From: Rhodanobacteraceae bacterium
GTDB lineage: Bacteria; Pseudomonadota; Gammaproteobacteria; Xanthomonadales; Rhodanobacteraceae
Direction of reading: 5' to 3'
DNA length: 64,000 bases
Assembly: GCA_009996615.1 (NCBI GenBank)
Contig: JAACZU010000008.1
Span: forward strand, 1 to 64,000
Below, piece by piece: positions 28 to 11,543 of the stretch. The position numbers and the translations under genes were made by a program. A model generated the notes under the pieces. The model made no database searches. It saw only the letters and a program-made list of their open reading frames with translations, and was not told the origin of the DNA. Positions within the stretch are counted from its first letter, which is position 1. The number at the start of each line of letters is the position of its first letter.

Positions 28-441
28 ATGCGTAGCATCGACGGGGAATTTTCACAGCCTCTCAGGGTGTCCGAGGTGCTGGCGGTCCTGAGCGAGATGC
101 CGACCGGCGCGGCGGCGAGTTCCAGAGGCAGGAGCGAGCCGCACGGCGTCGAGTGGCGTTTCCGGCTGCGCGCCTGGCCGCTGGAATTCGACCAGTGGCC
201 GCGCGAGTGGTGCCGGATCCTGGCCGACATCACGCGACAGGCGCGCCCTCTCGCGGAGATCGCTTCGCGCGTGGACCTCGCACCGTCGGAGGTGGAGCGC
301 TGCATCGTCCAGCTGACGCGCCTGGACCTGCTCGACCGGCTGGCCGAGCGGCGCACCCCGTCCGGCGTTGCAGCCGCTGCGCCGCGCGGCTGGCGCGATC
401 TAGCGACGCGCGTGGGTCAGATACTTGGATTCGCCCGATGA
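28..441 (+). CDS. Small winged-helix-like protein, first gene of the GTPase/globin operon
   Basis: 137 residues, family not recognised. Residues 60-105 contain a WCRILADITRQ...EIASRVDLAPSEVERCIVQLTRLDLLDRL stretch that reads like a winged-helix fold (helix, turn, recognition helix, wing), so a DNA- or protein-binding role is possible. There is no signal peptide or membrane segment. Its stop overlaps the GTPase start as ATGA, so the two are translationally coupled. The start is the first ATG; the Shine-Dalgarno (GGGGG) is far upstream, and an internal ATG at position 97 is an alternative. Function beyond operon membership is unknown. By analogy with other MglA/roadblock clusters it may be an accessory or effector of the GTPase (inference). 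Confidence 0.6.
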   Translation: MRSIDGEFSQPLRVSEVLAVLSEMPTGAAASSRGRSEPHGVEWRFRLRAWPLEFDQWPREWCRILADITRQARPLAEIASRVDLAPSEVERCIVQLTRLDLLDRLAERRTPSGVAAAAPRGWRDLATRVGQILGFAR

Positions 442-1007
442 AGCAAAGTTACAAGATGGTGTTCGTAGGCGAGCCCGGTGCCGGCAAGACGACCTGCATC
501 GCCGCCCTGAGCGACATCAAGCCAGTCACCACCGACGTGGGTTGCACCGATGAACTGGCCATGATCAAGGAGACCACCACGGTCGCGCTGGACTATGGCG
601 AGCTCGATCTGGGCGACCAGGGGCGGCTGCTGCTGTATGGACTGCCCGGACAATCGCGCTTCCGCTTCATGTTCGACGTGGTCCGCGCAGGTTTGCTCGG
701 CGTCGTCATCCTGGTCGATGCCGCGTCCAGCCACGCGCTCGACGGATTGGCGGAAACGCTGGAGACCTATGCCGACGAGTTGCGCCATCTGCCCTGCGTA
801 CTGGCGCTCAACAAGCATCCCGACCCGCCGGACACGTTCAAGCAGCAGTGCCAGGACCTGCTGCGCAAACACAAACTGGTCACGCCGATCCTGGCCGTCG
901 ACGCGCGCAAGCGCGCCGATGTCATCCGCGTGTTCGAGCTGCTGTTCGTGCTGCTCGAGTACGGCTCGGACGGCGCACCACGACAGGAAGCGCCCGCATG
1001 GCTGTGA
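438..1007 (+). CDS. MglA-like small Ras-type GTPase
   Basis: 189-residue cytoplasmic P-loop GTPase. The G1 motif GEPGAGKT lies at residues 11-18. The G3 region reads YGLPGQ (67-72) where most small GTPases have DTxGQ, so the Mg-coordinating Asp is replaced. The G4 motif is NKHPD (125-129), shifted by one residue from NKxD. Similar divergence occurs among bacterial MglA/Rag-like GTPases. The start is the ATG overlapping the upstream stop; a longer reading of the same frame would only add out-of-frame upstream coding sequence. The next gene encodes a roadblock protein, the usual regulatory partner (MglB-like) of such GTPases. Likely a nucleotide-dependent switch controlling localisation or activity of a partner; the partner is unknown. 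Confidence 0.85.
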   Translation: MKQSYKMVFVGEPGAGKTTCIAALSDIKPVTTDVGCTDELAMIKETTTVALDYGELDLGDQGRLLLYGLPGQSRFRFMFDVVRAGLLGVVILVDAASSHALDGLAETLETYADELRHLPCVLALNKHPDPPDTFKQQCQDLLRKHKLVTPILAVDARKRADVIRVFELLFVLLEYGSDGAPRQEAPAWL

Positions 1008-1399
1008 AAGCACCCGATCGGGCTCGTTGCATCCAGGCGCTGGATGACCTGGTCAAACGCTGCGATGGCGTCAACGCGGCGATGTTGGCATTGCGCGACG
1101 GGCGGCCGTACGCGGAAAGGTCGGGCGGGCGGGTCGAGCCCGGCAAATTCGCTGCGATGGCCAGTTCGCTGCTGGCGCTCGGCAGCAGCGTGCTGCGCGA
1201 ACTCAGTGCCGGCACGCTCGACCATGTGCTGGTCGAAGGTGGCGCCGGCAAGCTGGTGGTGGCGAACGTACCGGGCAGCCATGGCCTGCTGATCCTGGCC
1301 GTGCTGGCCAGCCATGACGCGCGCCTGGGGCTGGTGCTCGGCCAGGCCAAGACCTGCGCGCTCGAGGTCGCGGCGGCCTTTCCGCCCAACGGAGAATGA
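998..1399 (+). CDS. Roadblock/LC7-domain protein, putative GTPase regulator
   Basis: 133 residues, single roadblock/LC7 domain: an N-terminal helix (IQALDDLVKRCDGVNAAMLA), the RDGRPYAE strand, a central helix (KFAAMASSLLALGSSVLREL) and C-terminal strands ending in RLGLVLGQAKTC. In characterised systems (MglB with MglA) such proteins dimerise and act as GAP or GEF of the adjacent small GTPase. Coding overlaps the GTPase end by 10 bases and its own stop overlaps the next gene as ATGA, so the operon is tightly coupled. Product confidence is high; its specific biological output is not known. Confidence 0.85.
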   Translation: MAVKAPDRARCIQALDDLVKRCDGVNAAMLALRDGRPYAERSGGRVEPGKFAAMASSLLALGSSVLRELSAGTLDHVLVEGGAGKLVVANVPGSHGLLILAVLASHDARLGLVLGQAKTCALEVAAAFPPNGE

Positions 1400-2958
1400 C
1401 GGCCATGCCCAGCATCGAGTACCAGGGCAAGCGGTACGGCGCCGAACCGGGCGAGAGCGTACTGGAAGCGCTGCTGCGCCAGGGCGCGGTGGTGAGCCAC
1501 TCCTGCCGCAAGGGCTCGTGCCATGCCTGTGTGCTCAAGCGCGAACGCGGCGAGGTACGCCACAGCCGCGACATCGATCCGTCGCTCGCGCGCGACGGCC
1601 ACATCCTGAGCTGCGTCGCGATCCCGCAGGGCGACGTGGTGCTGGCCGCGGCGGACATGGCCCACCGCTCCATCGCCGCCGAAGTCGTTCATCGCCGCCC
1701 GTTGGCCGAGGACGTGGTCGAACTGGGCATCGCGCCGGCGCAGGACATCGACTTCCTGGCCGGACAGCACGTGCAGGTGCTGCGCGCCGACGAGCTGTCG
1801 CGCCCCTACTCGATCGCCAGCGTGCCGGGCGAGGACTACTACTTCCGCATCCAGGTGCGGCGCGTCGCCGACGGCGCGATGAGCCGCTGGCTGTGCGACG
1901 AGGTGCAGCCGGGACAGAAACTCGCCCTGCGCCGGCCGCTGGGCGACTGCTGCTACCGTCCGTCGATGCGCGAACGGCCGCTGCTGCTGCTCGCCACCGG
2001 CACCGGCGTCGGTGCGCTGGCGGCGCTGGCGCGACAGGCACTGGGCGATGGCCACGCTGCACCGGTCACGCTCTACCACGGCGCGCGCCGCATGGCGGAC
2101 CTGTACCTGCATGCCGAGCTGCACGAACTGCAGCGGCGCCATCCGCATTTCCGCTACGTACCCTGCCTCACGCGCGAAGCCGCGCCCGCGGGCGTGCGCG
2201 CCGGCCGCGTCACCGAGGCCGCGCTCGCCGATCATCCCGACCTGCAGCCGTTCGAGGTATTCCTCTGCGGCCTGCCGGCGATGGTGCAGGAAGCGCGCTA
2301 TCGCGCGATTCTTGCCGGTGCCCAGCGGGCGCGCATCCATGCCGATCCGTTCGAGTTCGCGCATCCGCCGGCGCCGCGCGATGCGGAAAAGATCGCCGCG
2401 ATCGCCGCCGATCCCGCGCTGTGGGCGGCGCTCGAGCAGGGCCCCGGCCTGAGCCGCATCCTCGCCACGTTCTATGACCGCGTCTACGAGGACGCGCGGC
2501 TGTCGCCGTTCTTCCAGGGCGTGGCCAAACCCTTTGTGATCCAGAAGCAGTACGAGTTCCTGGCCAAGCTGTTCTCGGGCGAGACCGGCTATTTCGGCCT
2601 GAACCCGTACAACGCGCACCACTGGATGGTGATCTCGGACGAGCTGTTCGACTATCGCGAGGCGTTGTTCGAAACGGTGCTGCACGAATACGGCCTCGAT
2701 CGGCCGCTGATCCGCCGCTGGATGGCGCTGCAGGAATTGTTCCGCGCCGAGATCGTGAAACCGGCCGCGCGTGGCATCATCTCGGAAGGCACGGAACACC
2801 CGCTGCGCACGCACGTGGTCGAGTGCCTCGACATCGAGGCCGTCTGCGATGGCTGCGGCCAGGCCATTCCGGCACGGGCCCCCAGCCGCTACCACTACCG
2901 CGTCGGCCACCTGCATTGTGCGGACTGCGCCGGCATCGAGCTGAGCGCAAGGGCCTGA
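1396..2958 (+). CDS. Four-domain ferredoxin reductase-truncated haemoglobin fusion with C-terminal Cys4 motif
   Basis: 520 residues. Residues 1-85 form a plant-type [2Fe-2S] ferredoxin with Cys37, Cys42, Cys45 and Cys73 (CX4CX2CX27C). Residues 90-320 form a ferredoxin-NADP-reductase-like module with the FAD motif RPYSIAS (136-142) and a nucleotide-binding loop ATGTGVG (200-206). Residues 333-460 match a truncated haemoglobin (FYDRVYEDARLSPFF; proximal His candidates 408/409 in YNAHHWMVIS). Residues 484-511 hold CX2C-X20-CX2C, a probable zinc-ribbon or rubredoxin-like knuckle. The order suggests NAD(P)H to FAD to Fe-S to haem electron flow, functionally analogous to flavohaemoglobin (NO or O2 chemistry, inferred). 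The start overlaps the upstream stop (ATGA); a second ATG three codons in is possible. An unusual fusion. Confidence 0.85.
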   Translation: MTAMPSIEYQGKRYGAEPGESVLEALLRQGAVVSHSCRKGSCHACVLKRERGEVRHSRDIDPSLARDGHILSCVAIPQGDVVLAAADMAHRSIAAEVVHRRPLAEDVVELGIAPAQDIDFLAGQHVQVLRADELSRPYSIASVPGEDYYFRIQVRRVADGAMSRWLCDEVQPGQKLALRRPLGDCCYRPSMRERPLLLLATGTGVGALAALARQALGDGHAAPVTLYHGARRMADLYLHAELHELQRRHPHFRYVPCLTREAAPAGVRAGRVTEAALADHPDLQPFEVFLCGLPAMVQEARYRAILAGAQRARIHADPFEFAHPPAPRDAEKIAAIAADPALWAALEQGPGLSRILATFYDRVYEDARLSPFFQGVAKPFVIQKQYEFLAKLFSGETGYFGLNPYNAHHWMVISDELFDYREALFETVLHEYGLDRPLIRRWMALQELFRAEIVKPAARGIISEGTEHPLRTHVVECLDIEAVCDGCGQAIPARAPSRYHYRVGHLHCADCAGIELSARA

Positions 2959-2962
2959 CGTC

Positions 2963-3625
2963 ATGCCGAACACGATCACTCCCAGCCACCCCGCGGATCG
3001 GCCGGCGACGACGGCGCGCGCCGCGCGCGTCGTGCTCGGCCATCCCGGCGCGCTGGTTCGGCTGGGCTTCGCCGAACTGATCTCGCGCGTGGCGGACGCG
3101 CAGCTGTGCGCGTCCGCGGAGACGATCGAGCAGACCATCGCCGCGGTGAACCGCCATCGGCCGGATGTGCTCGTGCTGGCCGCCGATTTCCGCGAGGTGG
3201 TCGCGAAGATGCGCCATGCGCCGCGCGTGCTGCTGCTTTCGCCGCACCACCATGCCGGCAAGGGCGGCGCCTGCGCACGCACCTGCGCGTTCTCGAGCGA
3301 GCAGGACTCGACCGAGGCGCTGGTCGATACGCTGCAGCGCGTGATCGCCTGCAGCGAGGCAGGCGTCGGAACGGCCGCGTGCGCGCGCTGCCCGCTCAAG
3401 CTGAGCTTCGCGCCGGCCGAGCTGCCGCTGTCGCGGCGCGAGCGCGAGGTGTTCGAGCAGATCGCCAGCGGCCGCCCGACCAGCCGCATCGCCGCGCAGC
3501 TCGGCATCAGCGTCAAGACGGTCGAAACCTATCGCGGCAACATCAAGAACAAGCTGGGCCTGCCGAGCCCGACCGCGCTGACCGAAGCGGCGCTGCTGTG
3601 GCGGCGCGGCATGCGCCTGCCATAG
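2963..3625 (+). CDS. LuxR/NarL-type regulator with degenerate, cysteine-rich receiver
   Basis: 220 residues. The C-terminal NarL/LuxR helix-turn-helix (about 155-215; LSRREREVFEQIASGRPTSRIAAQLGIS, then VKTVETYRGNIKNKLGL) is canonical. The N-terminal part (21-125) has the outline of a response-regulator receiver (RPDVLVLAADF at 66-76), but no Asp sits at the phosphoacceptor position. Six cysteines occur (49, 104, 108, 130, 140, 143), five of them clustered between the receiver-like core and the HTH in CX3C and CX2C spacing. A metal, Fe-S or redox/NO-sensing linker is plausible (inference). The gene starts four bases after the haem fusion stop, so it probably regulates this operon or related respiratory genes. 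Confidence 0.85.
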   Translation: MPNTITPSHPADRPATTARAARVVLGHPGALVRLGFAELISRVADAQLCASAETIEQTIAAVNRHRPDVLVLAADFREVVAKMRHAPRVLLLSPHHHAGKGGACARTCAFSSEQDSTEALVDTLQRVIACSEAGVGTAACARCPLKLSFAPAELPLSRREREVFEQIASGRPTSRIAAQLGISVKTVETYRGNIKNKLGLPSPTALTEAALLWRRGMRLP

Positions 3626-3649
3626 ACGGCGGGACGTTTGGCGTGGAAC

Positions 3650-3720
3650 GCGGGAGCGGCGCAAGCCGCGATGCCCTGCTCGTGCGCGGGCACGCGCATC
3701 GTGCCCGCCGGCGCTCCCGC
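3650..3720. repeat. REP-like palindrome between convergent genes
   Basis: GCGGGAGCG near the left end is mirrored by CGCTCCCGC at the right end, and GCGGCGCAAGCCGC inside the left arm forms its own hairpin. It lies between the LuxR regulator and the convergent TonB-type lipoprotein, so it may act as a bidirectional transcription terminator. Structure is seen; function is inferred. Confidence 0.5.
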
Positions 3721-3733
3721 AAGCGCGCGATGC

Positions 3734-4192
3734 CTATCGTCCCCGCTCGCGCCGGTCGGCCGGCGACGGCGGCACGTTGAAATTGCGCAGGATCGTGAAG
3801 TCGAACGCGACCGACAGCGGTGAGGCCACCGCCACGCCATCCTTGCGCGCCGGCTCGAAGCGCCAGCCCTTCACCGCGATCGCAAGGTGGCGGCCGAACA
3901 CTTCGCGGTCGGCCGCGACGACATGGATGTCGCGCGTGGTGCCGTCCGCGGCGACCGTGAAGGCGACCTCGGCGCTGCTGGTCTTGCCGGTCAGCAGCTG
4001 GCCGATCGGATAGACCGGCGACTTGCCGCTGACCAGCCGCGCCGGCGTGTCCCACTCCACCGACGCCGGCCCGACGATCGAACCCGGCTCCATCCAGCGG
4101 TTGGCGCGGTGGCCCGTTTCGTGCGTGCCGGCGCAGCCGGCGAGCAGGCCCGCCAGCCCCATCGCGATGGTCCGTCGTAGCAGTCGATGCAT
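3734..4192 (-). CDS. TonB C-terminal-like lipoprotein
   Basis: 152 residues. The signal peptide ends in a lipobox (LAGLLAGC), predicting an outer- or inner-membrane lipoprotein. Residues 55-140 match a TonB_C-type domain: PVYPIGQLLTGKTSSAEVAFTVAADGTTRDIHVVAADREVFGR, then AVKGWRFEPARKDG, the classic beta-alpha-beta energy-transducing or peptidoglycan-associated fold. It lacks the N-terminal transmembrane helix and proline-rich spacer of TonB itself. The start has a strong GGAGGAG Shine-Dalgarno. It lies 34 bases downstream of the S9 peptidase gene and is probably co-transcribed with it. Confidence 0.8.
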   Translation of the reverse strand: MHRLLRRTIAMGLAGLLAGCAGTHETGHRANRWMEPGSIVGPASVEWDTPARLVSGKSPVYPIGQLLTGKTSSAEVAFTVAADGTTRDIHVVAADREVFGRHLAIAVKGWRFEPARKDGVAVASPLSVAFDFTILRNFNVPPSPADRRERGR

Positions 4193-4226
4193 CGTGTACT
4201 CCTCCGTTGCAGGTTCTTGCGGCCGC

Positions 4227-7533: not shown

Positions 7534-7573
7534 CGGGAATGGGTACGTGGGCGGCGGCCGGAACGGAACGGCC

Positions 7574-7948
7574 TCAGGCGCCGACGCGACGGCGCACCGT
7601 GTCGATGTCGCGTACCGGGCGCACCTCGATGCAGCCCACGCGCGTCCACGGGAAGCTCTGCGCGATGCGCACCGCCTCGTCCATGTCGGCCGCCTCGATC
7701 AGGTTGAAGCCGCCGAGCACTTCCTTGGCCTCGGCAAACGGGCCGTCGACCACGCGCGTGCGGCCATCGCGCACGCGCACCGAGCGCGCCGTCGCGGCCG
7801 CCTCGAGCTGCTGCGATTCGATCAGGCAACCCTCGGCCTGCAGTTCGTCGGCATGTCCGAGGCAACCGCGCATCATCGCGTCGAACTCGCTGGCCGGCAG
7901 CGCATCGAGCAGGGCTTCGTCGATGTAGACCAGCAGCAGGAACTTCAC
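7574..7948 (-). CDS. YCII/DGPF-domain protein (YciI family)
   Basis: 124-residue alpha-beta barrel protein of the YCII superfamily. The signature DGPF occurs in VDGPFAEAKEVLGGFNLIEA, and the N-terminus MKFLLLVYIDEALLDALPA is typical. These proteins are small cytoplasmic enzymes or binding proteins, often near ECF sigma factors; none is seen here. The start codon overlaps the stop of the upstream DUF3297 gene (ATGA), so the two are co-translated. A second DGPF paralogue lies about 15 kb away. The substrate is unknown. Confidence 0.85.
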   Translation of the reverse strand: MKFLLLVYIDEALLDALPASEFDAMMRGCLGHADELQAEGCLIESQQLEAAATARSVRVRDGRTRVVDGPFAEAKEVLGGFNLIEAADMDEAVRIAQSFPWTRVGCIEVRPVRDIDTVRRRVGA

Positions 7949-8196
7949 GGCGCCTCGGCGGCTTCCTGGAAGAACGGCACGACCTCGCCCTTGAGCTTGA
8001 GCGTCATCGGATTGCCGCGGCGGTCGCGCGCCTTGCCGGCGGCGACGCGGATCCAGCCTTCGCTGACGCAGTATTCCTCGACGTTGGTCCGTTCCACGCC
8101 GTTGAAGCGGATGCCGATGCCGCGCGCGAGCAGGTCGGCATCGTGGTACGGGCTCTTGGGGTCGACGGAAAGGCGGTCGGGCAAGGTGTCGGTCAT
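7945..8196 (-). CDS. DUF3297 family protein
   Basis: 83-residue cytoplasmic protein that matches the DUF3297 pattern: an N-terminal DRLSVDPKSPYHDADLLARGIGIRFNG segment, then VEEYCVSEGWIRVAAGKARDRRGNPMTLKLKGEVVPF. Members are glutathione-peroxidase-like only in database naming; the biochemical role is not established. It is coupled to the downstream YCII gene through an overlapping ATGA. The ATG chosen gives the usual length of about 80 residues. Confidence 0.8.
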   Translation of the reverse strand: MTDTLPDRLSVDPKSPYHDADLLARGIGIRFNGVERTNVEEYCVSEGWIRVAAGKARDRRGNPMTLKLKGEVVPFFQEAAEAP

Positions 8197-8288
8197 CGGT
8201 TCAACAAATCTGGGGTGGCGCCAGCGGCCACGCGGGCGCAAAGGATACCCGCCGTCGGCCGGCGTGGCGAACCCCGCAGCGCCGGCGC

Positions 8289-8846
8289 TCAGTGCTGGTA
8301 GGTGCCGACCAGTTCCGCCTGCGCGACGACATGTCCCTTCATCGCCGCGAGCAGCCGCGCCTTGTCCGGCCGGCCGAGGTCGGGCAGCACGGTATCGAGC
8401 GCGTAGAGCTTGAAGAAATAGCGATGCCGCCCGACCGGCGGACACGGCCCGCCGTAGCCGGTGCGACCGAAGTCGTTCCTGCCCTCGCGCGCGCCGGGCG
8501 GCAGCCGCGCCGAATCGACGGCCTCGGGCAGACCGTCCGCAGCGGCCGGCAGGTCGTACAGCACCCAGTGCACCCAGACCGTCTGCGGCGCGGCCGGGTC
8601 GGGCGCATCCGGATCGTCGACGATCAGCGCCAGGCTCTTCGCCTTCGCCGGCACGCCGCTCCACTGCAACGGCGGCGACGCCTCGTTGCCGTCGCAGGTG
8701 TAACGCGCGGGGATCGCGGCATGCGACGCGAACGCCGGCGAACGCAGGTTCAGTGACATGGCGGCCTCCTCGCCCCCGCCGCGCAGGGGCGCCAGCGCGA
8801 GCAGCGCGGCAACGGACAACACTCGGGCGACGACCATCGCGGACAC
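8289..8846 (-). CDS. Periplasmic YbhB/YbcL-type PEBP protein
   Basis: 185 residues. A short signal peptide (ARVLSVAALLALAPL) precedes a phosphatidylethanolamine-binding/Raf-kinase-inhibitor-like fold: IPARYTCDGNEASPPLQWSG, LIVDDPDAPDP, VHWVLYDLPA, FGRTGYGGPCPPVGRHRYFFKLYALD. The conserved DPDAP and GPCPP ligand-pocket motifs are intact. Bacterial members are of uncertain function; ligand or serine-protease binding has been suggested for the family. It lies 24 bases downstream of the DUF3857 gene stop and may be co-transcribed. An internal Met at residue 30 would give the cytoplasmic YbhB length. Confidence 0.85.
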   Translation of the reverse strand: MSAMVVARVLSVAALLALAPLRGGGEEAAMSLNLRSPAFASHAAIPARYTCDGNEASPPLQWSGVPAKAKSLALIVDDPDAPDPAAPQTVWVHWVLYDLPAAADGLPEAVDSARLPPGAREGRNDFGRTGYGGPCPPVGRHRYFFKLYALDTVLPDLGRPDKARLLAAMKGHVVAQAELVGTYQH

Positions 8847-8870
8847 CTCGGCTCGCGCACCGGCGGAATT

Positions 8871-11543
8871 CTACTCCCCCTCTGCCGCCGGCAGGCCGCG
8901 CCATGCCGGCACGGGGACGGCGACCGGTACCGCCGGCCGTTGCGGGCGCGCACGGATGAAGGTCGACTGCACGCGCCGGGAGACGCGGAAGTAGGCGATC
9001 CAGGCGACCACGCCGAACAGGCCGCCGAACAGCTTGCCCCACGCGCCGGCGTCGACTGCAGCGCTGGCGGCCGGCAGCGCCGCGGCAAACAGCAGGTCGG
9101 CCGCCTGCACGCCAAAGCATCCCAGCAGGAACGTGCTGTAGACGAGTGGCACGCTGCGCCGCCGCTGGAAGAACAGCACCGCCAGCAGCAACGAGCAGAC
9201 GATCAGCGCGAGGTTGGCGCCGAGTTCGAACAGCAGGAACGGCGCCCACAGCGGATGGTAGGCCGCGCCGCCATGCGTCGTCAGCGCCGCCCAGGTGTCG
9301 GCCGCGAACGGATCGGTGGTGCCGATGAAATCGACCACCAGCCGGATCGGCGTCACGACGACGCCGATCGCCGGCAGCACCAGCCAGCCGCGGATGCCCT
9401 GCAAGGCCGGATCGACGGCGCTTGCCGGCGCGGCCGGGTCGTAGCGGTAGACGCCCGCGGCGAGGTGGATCCACAGCAACAGCAGCAGCGCGCCGAGCAT
9501 GGCGATCGTCCAGTTGAAGCGCTCGAAGCCGCCGGCCGCCGCGGCCGGATCGCGCCAGGAGAGCCGGTAGCCCATTTCGTCGCGGGCCAGCGCAAGGCTC
9601 TCCAGATAGCGCGGCATGTCCGCGCTGGCGACCTCGTCGGTGCGCGCCTGGTAGCGGTCCGCGAAGACGATGTGCTTGTCGTCGCCGCTGATGCTGCGCT
9701 CGAACGAAAACGCCGCATCTTCCACGCGCACCGTGTCCGGCGTGAACGACCATTCCTCCGGCAGCAGCACCTCGGTCACCTGCGTGACCTCCAGCGGATG
9801 CAGCAGGCCGAGCGGCGCGCGCCGGATCGACGGCGTCGGATCGCGCAGCATCTCGTCCATGTCCGGCGTTTCGATCGCGACCTGATGGCGCTTGTCGCTT
9901 TCCGACCACGACGCGAACTCGGCGATGTCGTAGTGCTCGGTCGTCGTGATGCGATTGTTCGGTTCGTCCTCGGCCACCTCCAGCGGCGCCGCGATCGCGA
10001 TCTTCGGGTAGTAACGCGCGTAGTAGTTCAGGTACTGCAGCTGCAGGTCAGCCAGGTTCGACGAGGCGAGCGTGTTTCGCAGCGCTTCGGCGCGGCCGCC
10101 CTCGACCGTCGTGGTGACGGTGTAGCGCACGGTCTTGTCGAATCCCGCATGTGCATCGAACACTGCGCGGATGCTGCGCCGGCTCAACGCCGAGGAAGCA
10201 TTGGCCATCGGCACCAGCGCGCGCGTGCCAGGATCGACGATCAGCGCATGGCCGTAGTCGGGCTGGTACAGATGCTCGATGTCGCCCTTCTGCGGCGCGC
10301 GGGTCGGATCGATCCAGAAGCGCCGGCCGTTGATGCGCGCCTCGACCAGCACGTGGTCGAACGCGCCCGGCATCGGCTGCTGCTCCTTGACGCCGCGCCG
10401 CACGTCCGTGGCGACCAGCGCGGCGCGTGCCTCGATGCCGAGCCCGCGCAGCATCGCCAATGCCAGCAGCGCCTTGTCCTTGCAATCGCCGAAGCGCCGC
10501 TCGAGCACCAGCGCGGGCGGATTGGGCGCGTGCGAACCGGCCCCGATCTCGACCCCGAGATAACGAATCTCGCTCTGCACGAAACGCAGCGCCGCCAGCA
10601 TGCGGCCGGCCGGATCAGACTGCTGGCGGGCAATCGCGTCGATCTCCGCCTGCACGCCGGCGCCCGGTCGCGCCGGCACCTCGTACAACGGCGCGGCCCA
10701 GCGCGCCACCGCGCCCCAGTCGGGATACTCGCTCCATTCGACGGACGCGTAAGGCGCATACCAGCCAGGCGCGCCCGCATCGACGACCAGTGCCGTCGCG
10801 TTCGGCTGGCTCCACTCGTACTCGCGATAGCCATCGCGCGTCGCGACGAGCGGCGCGGGCGGCGCGTTGCGCGGCTTGATCGCGACGTCGCGATCGAGCG
10901 GAACCAGCAGCCGCGCGCGCAGAAGCTGCGCCGGCTCGGCGTACTGCAGCCGGAACACACCGGCCTCGCGGTTGCCGAACACCGGATTGCCACCTTGCAC
11001 GGTGTAGGCGTAGTCGACCGTATCGCCGACGCGCACGTCGTCGAGGAACACGTGCACGGTCTTGCTGCCGTCGAGGATGCGGCGGTCGAGCGCGGTCTCG
11101 CGCTGCAGCACGTGCACCTTCGCGCCCGCCAGCTTGGGCAGCACGCGGCCGTCGCGGACGATGTCGATCGAATGCAGGGTCAGCGTCTGGTACGACGGAT
11201 CGAAGCCGATCTCGATGTTGGCGATCGCCTCGACGCCGCTCCCGTTGACCGCCTTCGACGCGAACCGGCGATACGTCTCGCGTCCCTGCGGGGCAAGGCG
11301 GACCTGCGCATCGCTCAGCAGGTAATACGTGCCGTCGCTGATCTGGCCGAGCGGAACCTCGCCTGCGTCCGCCACCGGCGCCGGCTTGACCCAGGTCGCC
11401 GCCGGTCCGGTCCGATATTCAGCCGCGTACCCCGCCCCCGGCACGGACAGGCCGGAAGCCAGCAAACCCAGGACGAAGAAGCAGCGGGCAACGCGCCCGC
11501 GCCGCGATCCCCTCGCGGTCCATCGCTGTGCGTGATCCAACAC
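8871..11543 (-). CDS. DUF3857/transglutaminase-like membrane protein
   Basis: 890 residues. Signal peptide (FFVLGLLASGLSVPGAGYA), then a DUF3857 domain (about 60-260), then a transglutaminase-like domain with Cys354 in RFGDCKDKALLA, a His in AFDHVLVEA and an Asp in WIDPTR, the intact catalytic triad. The last 220 residues hold several transmembrane helices of DUF2569 type (NWTIAMLGALLLLLWIHL onward). Such fused proteins are widespread in Xanthomonadales and Bacteroidota; peptide or polyamine crosslinking or hydrolysis in the periplasm is presumed. The start is GTG with GGGGA five bases upstream; no ATG precedes the signal peptide. Confidence 0.85.
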   Translation of the reverse strand: MLDHAQRWTARGSRRGRVARCFFVLGLLASGLSVPGAGYAAEYRTGPAATWVKPAPVADAGEVPLGQISDGTYYLLSDAQVRLAPQGRETYRRFASKAVNGSGVEAIANIEIGFDPSYQTLTLHSIDIVRDGRVLPKLAGAKVHVLQRETALDRRILDGSKTVHVFLDDVRVGDTVDYAYTVQGGNPVFGNREAGVFRLQYAEPAQLLRARLLVPLDRDVAIKPRNAPPAPLVATRDGYREYEWSQPNATALVVDAGAPGWYAPYASVEWSEYPDWGAVARWAAPLYEVPARPGAGVQAEIDAIARQQSDPAGRMLAALRFVQSEIRYLGVEIGAGSHAPNPPALVLERRFGDCKDKALLALAMLRGLGIEARAALVATDVRRGVKEQQPMPGAFDHVLVEARINGRRFWIDPTRAPQKGDIEHLYQPDYGHALIVDPGTRALVPMANASSALSRRSIRAVFDAHAGFDKTVRYTVTTTVEGGRAEALRNTLASSNLADLQLQYLNYYARYYPKIAIAAPLEVAEDEPNNRITTTEHYDIAEFASWSESDKRHQVAIETPDMDEMLRDPTPSIRRAPLGLLHPLEVTQVTEVLLPEEWSFTPDTVRVEDAAFSFERSISGDDKHIVFADRYQARTDEVASADMPRYLESLALARDEMGYRLSWRDPAAAAGGFERFNWTIAMLGALLLLLWIHLAAGVYRYDPAAPASAVDPALQGIRGWLVLPAIGVVVTPIRLVVDFIGTTDPFAADTWAALTTHGGAAYHPLWAPFLLFELGANLALIVCSLLLAVLFFQRRRSVPLVYSTFLLGCFGVQAADLLFAAALPAASAAVDAGAWGKLFGGLFGVVAWIAYFRVSRRVQSTFIRARPQRPAVPVAVPVPAWRGLPAAEGE

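Follow-up and report, generated by a model that had tools for sequence, protein, structure and literature searches.

A ferredoxin reductase–truncated haemoglobin fusion protein and its association with a G-protein/phosphatase gene module

Flavohaemoglobins (Hmp) combine a globin with an FAD/NAD reductase in one chain. Here, we describe C0, a protein encoded at positions 1396..2958 (+) of a 64,000-nucleotide stretch of Rhodanobacteraceae bacterium DNA (assembly GCA_009996615.1, contig JAACZU010000008.1, positions 1 to 64,000 of the forward strand; the whole stretch is referred to below as the window), which resembles Hmp in this arrangement and, likely, in its nitric oxide (NO) or O2 chemistry. 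Unlike Hmp, C0 has a C-terminal truncated group 1 globin, an N-terminal ferredoxin domain (Fer2) and a tail with four cysteines (Cys4). The original prediction made for this DNA had drawn the same contrast in domain order and globin type, and it is borne out by the Pfam order of C0 domains (Fer2, FAD_binding_6, NAD_binding_1, Bac_globin); no Pfam "Globin" match was found in C0. Domain order and globin type together rule out a common flavohaemoglobin.

The Fer2-FAD-NAD order is shared with reductases of the GcoB/BenC/T4moF type, which reduce a separate oxygenase (GcoB serves a cytochrome P450, BenC a Rieske dioxygenase), while in C0 the globin and Cys4 are part of the same chain. Truncated haemoglobins paired with FNR-type reductases are described in the available text of PMC3820574 for Heterosigma, whose NR2-2/2HbN is called NO-metabolising and NO-detoxifying, and for Legionella, where glbN and a ferredoxin reductase gene form an operon under NsrR. 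In contrast to C0, the Heterosigma protein is a nitrate reductase fusion and the Legionella system consists of two genes; the same text mentions no signalling module for either and names electron donors for few haemoglobins.

The genes around C0 recall group 3 MglA systems of beta- and gammaproteobacteria, which consist of a receiver-like/winged-helix protein, MglA and one or two MglB proteins and in which, as in group 2, DAR is common at the G5 motif (PMC4316618, available text). The C0 cluster matches them in gene content, with adjacent MglA and MglB homologues (by Pfam and tblastn), a putative winged-helix gene, DAR and gammaproteobacterial hosts; this likeness is one of gene content and of a motif that cannot separate groups 2 and 3. 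The accounts of group 3 in that text name neither a globin nor either of two further proteins discussed below, C4 (an ABC-ATPase/phosphatase fusion) and C5, and give these systems no input signal. In Snodgrassella, which has a group 3 mglA, orphan mglB alleles affect gut colonisation (PMC11112851, available text). HGbRL, a globin-roadblock fusion reported, in the available text of PMC4476040, only in Methylacidiphilum, is a precedent for tying a globin to a roadblock domain; it differs from C0 in the kind of globin, in the fusion to the roadblock domain itself and in having no reductase. Actinobacterial conservons also combine a GTPase and a roadblock protein in an operon, but Pfam recognised no histidine kinase among the scanned genes of the cluster. 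Among the matches listed from open-licence PubMed Central, the C0 architecture, a cluster of a globin with group 3 MglA and a C4-C5-globin trio are undescribed, and the same search yielded no paper on a truncated haemoglobin with a roadblock protein or on a phosphatase with an ABC ATPase and MglA. With globin and reductase in one chain that is co-inherited with a G-protein/phosphatase module, the questions of input and of electron donor become testable together.

Domain organization of C0

The C0 frame (1396-2958, +) encodes 520 amino acids and is defined by open reading frame (ORF) analysis, Pfam, alignment and an AlphaFold2 (AF2) model. Its ATG overlaps the stop codon of the preceding roadblock gene (ATGA, 1396-1399), a usual sign of co-translation; an alternative in-frame ATG nine bases on, at 1405, would yield a 517-amino acid protein. 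A ferredoxin, a reductase, a truncated globin and a Cys4 motif had been predicted to lie in a single 520-residue chain; the ORF and Pfam agree, and all four Pfam families named in the prediction were found. The [2Fe-2S] ferredoxin domain occupies residues 12-78 (1429..1629, +; Fer2, 3.3e-10). Its Cys37, 42, 45 and 73 are invariant in the alignment of 14 full-length C0-family sequences, the one from the window included, that is used for all conservation statements below. The FAD-binding domain (residues 114-187; 1735..1956, +; FAD_binding_6, 7.5e-10) contains an RxYS motif at 136-139, of which Arg136, Tyr138 and Ser139 are unchanged in all 14 sequences, and is followed by the NAD(P)-binding domain (residues 198-301; 1987..2298, +; NAD_binding_1, 3.7e-17). 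The AF2 model of full C0 has a mean predicted local distance difference test score (pLDDT) of 84.3 and a predicted template modelling score (pTM) of 0.80.

Both by sequence and by fold, the best match of the reductase half is GcoB (5ogx). The next fold matches of the full C0 model are carbazole and benzoate dioxygenase reductases, and BenC was also matched. The N-terminal half of C0 is thus predicted to be a Fer2-FAD-NAD electron-transfer component of the BenC/GcoB type. C0 falls under the cut-off in all 25 NCBIfam families listed, so that no named function follows from them. At four loci, L040, L041, L042 and L045, an unfused relative of the reductase (37-41% identical) begins 18-22 bases past a truncated globin gene; these gene pairs are found in gammaproteobacterial bins, around 7557-9080. 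Reductases of this type therefore pair with truncated globins in two ways, either in the fusion or in a gene pair of narrow occurrence.

The globin extends over approximately residues 342-455 (2419..2760, +), as judged from a profile search of the Protein Data Bank (PDB), Foldseek and alignment columns. The Bac_globin match (residues 353-440) has an E-value of 1.9e-4 and 22.1 bits at a cut-off of 21. That so weak a match is noise was ruled out by searching PDB sequences with the globin+Cys4 profile (A2), which retrieved a group 1 truncated haemoglobin of Tetrahymena (2.5e-14). The AF2 model of globin+Cys4 (191 residues; mean pLDDT 77.9, pTM 0.62) is best matched in Foldseek by group 1 truncated haemoglobins (1dlw, TM-score 0.85 by target length, with 114 columns of the 191-residue model covered), and the best 50 rows are haemoglobins without exception. 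The pLDDT is below 50 for residues 396-405, the loop preceding His408, and low in parts of the Cys4 tail.

Globin residues Tyr360, Phe373, Gln385, His408, His409 and Trp410 are unchanged in 14/14 sequences; position 381, which we take from the alignment to be E7, is variable (V, I, A or L). His408 aligns with the histidine of known truncated haemoglobins that is presumably their proximal ligand, and the alignment places the invariant Tyr and Gln opposite residues of Mycobacterium HbN and of the Tetrahymena globin that we take to be distal (Tyr B10 and Gln E11). By closest similarity and by these His, Tyr and Gln residues, the C0 globin is classed, on its sequence, as a group 1 truncated haemoglobin.

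A group 1 globin with invariant Tyr and Gln, covalently joined to a reductase, would fit a plain NO dioxygenase, i.e., a flavohaemoglobin analogue made of other parts, with neighbouring signalling genes that control it, shield it or have nothing to do with it. The Heterosigma and Legionella cases, in the available text of PMC3820574, argue in the same direction. We nevertheless regard this explanation as possible but less likely than not: a bare globin+Cys4 is present inside the same cluster in genome G529 (locus L132), co-inheritance with C4 and C5, even at a distance, is hard to square with a stand-alone detoxifier and, among the annotated neighbours at the examined loci, none was recognised as a gene of NO metabolism.

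The C-terminal motif C484-X2-C487-X20-C508-X2-C511 (2845..2928, +) has the predicted CX2C-X20-CX2C spacing, and all four cysteines are invariant in the 14 sequences, which argues against chance. The tail is likely a putative metal-binding docking or relay element that stays with the globin. Indeed, at loci L043, L044 and L132 the reductase is absent and globin+Cys4 is kept; stand-alone L043 retains Cys4, one Cys column is altered in L044, and in L132 the bare globin+Cys4 occupies the place of C0 in the cluster. A frame in bin G176 (L128:8948-9871, -) contains in-frame Fer2, globin and Cys4 without FAD or NAD domains; in G235, from the genus of G176, C0 is complete. Thus, globin+Cys4 is the constant part of the C0 family, and the reductase domains are sometimes missing. 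In a phylogenetic tree the C0 family stands apart from four single-domain globins (support 100/100), and the stand-alone globin+Cys4 forms nest among the fused ones, which fits reductase loss without proving it. The idea that C0 might be a reductase for an external partner recruited through the Cys4 tail is weakened by these observations, since proteins that lack the reductase or part of it still keep Cys4 beside the globin, and since the unfused reductase relatives inspected end shortly past the NAD domain.

The same variants (L043, L044, L128, L132) favour a pure O2, NO or CO sensor, in which the haem's ligand state would be relayed by Cys4 and the reductase would just keep the iron ferrous. 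HGbRL, a putative sensor in the available text of PMC4476040, is a further point for it. The reductase, costly as it is, is however retained by most members; in addition, parts of Cys4 have low pLDDT, the folds listed for this region are all globins, and no exit route for a signal is visible. We hold a pure sensor to be possible, with the balance tipped against it.

The architecture is not common. A2 matches at E < 1e-60 mark 15 of the 398 order genomes, 5 of 369 in the class sample and 2 of 398 in the phylum sample, the last two counts each including G000 and G029; this excludes an everyday architecture. Left out of the count were G393 (a fragment, 4.6e-10), G092 (2.2e-10), G119 (3.3e-9) and a weaker second match in G039; most of the weaker class-sample matches inspected are proteins with one or two globins and no Cys4. 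C0 is therefore a real, conserved and rare protein, each part of which is of a known kind and whose assembly is new.

Co-inheritance of C0 with C4 and C5

In C4, an ABC ATPase and a dual-specificity phosphatase are joined in one protein, as recognised by Pfam ABC_tran together with PF22785/PF22784. The phosphatase motif HCx5R is present in 13 C4 proteins, which were found by that motif, so that losses would be invisible. C5 has no match in Pfam, NCBIfam or PHROGs; its best PDB match, ribosomal protein S5 (E 0.042), is not convincing, and hhalign detects a weak likeness to the roadblock proteins of the cluster (probability 54.9, E 1.2e-4).

With the C5 profile (A3, threshold < 1e-30 in the order sample), 27/398 order genomes were positive, G019 (3.5e-17) and G140 (2.9e-17) being left out. 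C5 was found in 14 of 15 genomes with C0 and in 13 of 383 without it (Fisher 1.3e-17); counted by genus, the figures are 10/10 and 8/88 (Fisher 3.1e-9). With each genome counted once, 24/26 C0-family genomes have C5: 14/15 from the order sample, 3/3 from the class sample (G714, G601, G529) and 7/8 others (with C5, G011, G008, G1144, G1146, G1147, G1150 and G1151; without, G1145). Of the ten genomes behind loci from a contig collection, nine have C5 (1e-6 or better); a Myxococcales bin is among the nine, as is one of two Vicinamibacteria bins. The C4-C5-globin trio is found in three phyla. In the phylum sample, 5/339 genomes have C5 at < 1e-60; G000 and G029 have C0 as well, and G048, G628 and G949 are without a strong A2 match.

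Co-inheritance does not require proximity. C0 and C5 lie apart in G029, G038, G332, the Myxococcales bin and G1147; the distance exceeds 1 Mb in G332, and in the others the two genes are on separate contigs. In G029, G038 and G332 the C4-C5 pair is away from C0, and in G029 and G038 the GTPase, roadblock and winged-helix (C6) genes are with it. In L044, from a Vicinamibacteria bin, C5 and C4 are on the contig of the globin gene, at 11.7 kb from it.

We consider it about evenly balanced whether C0 is a self-sufficient truncated haemoglobin, reduced by NAD(P)H, that serves as the gas/redox arm of a C4-C5 signalling module. Judging from domain order and from related proteins, a cofactor-loaded C0 would pass electrons from NAD(P)H via FAD and [2Fe-2S] to the haem of the group 1 globin, and the ferrous haem could then bind O2 or turn over NO. 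C0 would act not alone but with the module, i.e., C4 and the possibly roadblock-like C5, to which many gammaproteobacterial members appear to add a GTPase of the MglA kind, a roadblock protein resembling MglB, a winged-helix protein and a LuxR regulator with four cysteines. The Cys4 tail may dock, or relay between, the globin and a partner; co-inheritance and gene order suggest the physiological role as the gas/redox arm. More tentatively, C0 may report O2, NO or redox state through Cys4 to the C4-roadblock core and, from there, to the Ras-like GTPase and transcription in gammaproteobacteria, a direction of signalling that we would put forward only as a working proposal. If true, this would be a small-G-protein system gated by haem, unlike globin-coupled kinases, cyclases or chemoreceptors. 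The setting of C0, beside this gene set and mostly co-inherited with it, suggests that in these bacteria a haemoglobin may inform a signalling system about oxygen, nitric oxide or redox state.

Several observations weigh against the assignment of C0 to the module. The genomes are related, and the Fisher values overstate independence; the background rate of C5 used in them is that of the order. No C5 was found in the C0-family genomes G196 (74% complete) and G1145, and 13 of the 27 C5 genomes of the order have the module without C0. In G332, G008, G048, G030, the Myxococcales bin, G1146 (Vicinamibacteria) and one G1147 contig, the neighbourhood of C5 yielded only C4 and C5 and neither a GTPase nor a roadblock gene; these searches used gammaproteobacterial queries at E up to 1e-3, which divergent GTPase or roadblock genes could escape. 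On the reductase side, the globin-reductase gene pair is narrow (4/27 unfused reductase loci examined), the 23 other loci (L008-L030) being without a globin gene in flanks of up to 1.5 kb. The globins of the four gene-pair loci are 88-93% identical to that of L041, and such close kin may represent one event. Neighbourhoods with C4 and C5 only indicate that C0 is tied closest to C4-C5 and less tightly to the GTPase, which gammaproteobacteria frequently add to C4-C5. The tie to the G-protein/phosphatase module is the surprising part of the finding on C0. The original prediction, sound in domain content and in the flavohaemoglobin contrast, had overlooked both the GTPase/roadblock operon and the co-inheritance with C4 and C5.

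The cluster in the window and in relatives

In the window, C0 is the last gene of an operon that opens with a C6 remnant, a GTPase gene and the roadblock gene, and a luxR-type gene comes next. The remnant is the C-terminal part of winged-helix protein C6 (62..441, +; HTH_IclR, 6.1e-5, and tblastn). The small, MglA-like GTPase (438..1007, +) was recognised by Pfam (ATP_bind_1, 7e-10; Arf, 4e-5) and has DAR at G5. The Roadblock/LC7 (MglB-like) protein (998..1399, +) is supported by Robl_LC7 (2.2e-10, in a longer ORF, 848-1396), by the gene call and by tblastn, and the LuxR-type regulator (2963..3625, +; GerE, 7.4e-17) by Pfam and by the alignment of its four-Cys pattern.

The window begins at the contig start. 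There, at 51..61 (+), lies an inverted copy of a repeat end that is also present where contig C15, from this genome, ends. The genes at that end of contig C15 (L150) are a divergent luxR gene, C4, C5 and the 5' part of C6. A 21-base form of the repeat end occurs at four sites in the genome, each within 61 bases of a contig end. Since inverted repeat copies are found at both contig ends, a repeated element, with TCA on both sides, seems to disrupt the window copy of C6. The genome has another cluster on contig C24 (L046), with a C0 that is 70% identical and a C6 of 214 amino acids.

Neighbours were counted by tblastn with cluster proteins at 30 loci with a C0-family gene or fragment, because gene re-calling had missed C0 in L037 and L122. 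At least one module gene was present in the stretch examined at 19 of the 30 loci (the window, L046, L034, L035, L049, L053, L031, L122, L051, L052, L124, L129, L123, L126, L125, L128, L130, L131 and L132). Among the other 11, L127, L048, L038 and L054 are cut by a contig end, L133 is a fragment, and in L121, L047, L050, L037, L043 and L044 tblastn found no module gene in the stretch examined. The GTPase G5 motif is DAR in 14 of 15 proteins (14 loci) and DPR in L132. Pfam support for the cluster winged-helix proteins is weak (HTH_IclR 6.1e-5, MarR_2 2.1e-5). Of four C9 proteins from other loci, three are without any Pfam match; the remaining one has a single match, at 0.19. A defence system was considered and rejected: PADLOC was blank for C0, C5 and the roadblock protein, and its matches for C4 and the GTPase were partial, weak ones to ATPases.

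All 13 cluster LuxR regulators examined share an ordered pattern of four cysteines ahead of the HTH, two single ones and then a CxxC; the 13 were chosen at tblastn values of about 1e-30 or better (window 2963-3625, L150, L034, L035, L051, L052, L124, L129, L155, L152, L156, L163 and L168); eight were scored by two regular expressions and the rest by eye. The weaker LuxR of L049 is without the pattern, and that of L151 is outside the 13. The conservation points to redox, metal or NO sensing at a putative site, possibly a metal or Fe-S site. Such a site could also be the target of C0 if C0 were a redox enzyme acting on another substrate or metal centre, with the globin activating O2 or relaying electrons. 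The four conserved cysteines would accord with this explanation, as would the reductase kin that work with oxygenases, but no recurring substrate gene is present in the neighbourhoods examined, and we find it improbable.

A few further arrangements were observed. At L124:7190-8788 (G127) the C0 frame opens past Fer2, yet the tblastn match covers the whole protein; this is either a broken frame or an assembly error. C4 is next to C5 at L046:12258-13442, L034:4795-5934 and L131:11298-12650, and in L158 and L165 a C4-C5 pair was found without GTPase, roadblock or globin genes alongside. Proteins of about 310 amino acids at L134:8405-9361, L080 and L098 join a full-length globin to a truncated one (Pfam Globin and Bac_globin for L134; by eye for L080 and L098), and a 278-amino acid frame at L100:1054-1887 (-; reverse-strand coordinates) appears, by eye, to contain two tandem truncated globin domains. 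Finally, beside its main cluster L031 has a second set at 1803-4195 (L031:1803-4195), in which a 321-amino acid protein is accompanied by a GTPase, a roadblock protein and a protein of 120 amino acids that by eye appears roadblock-like; the set resembles the plain group 3 MglA layout.

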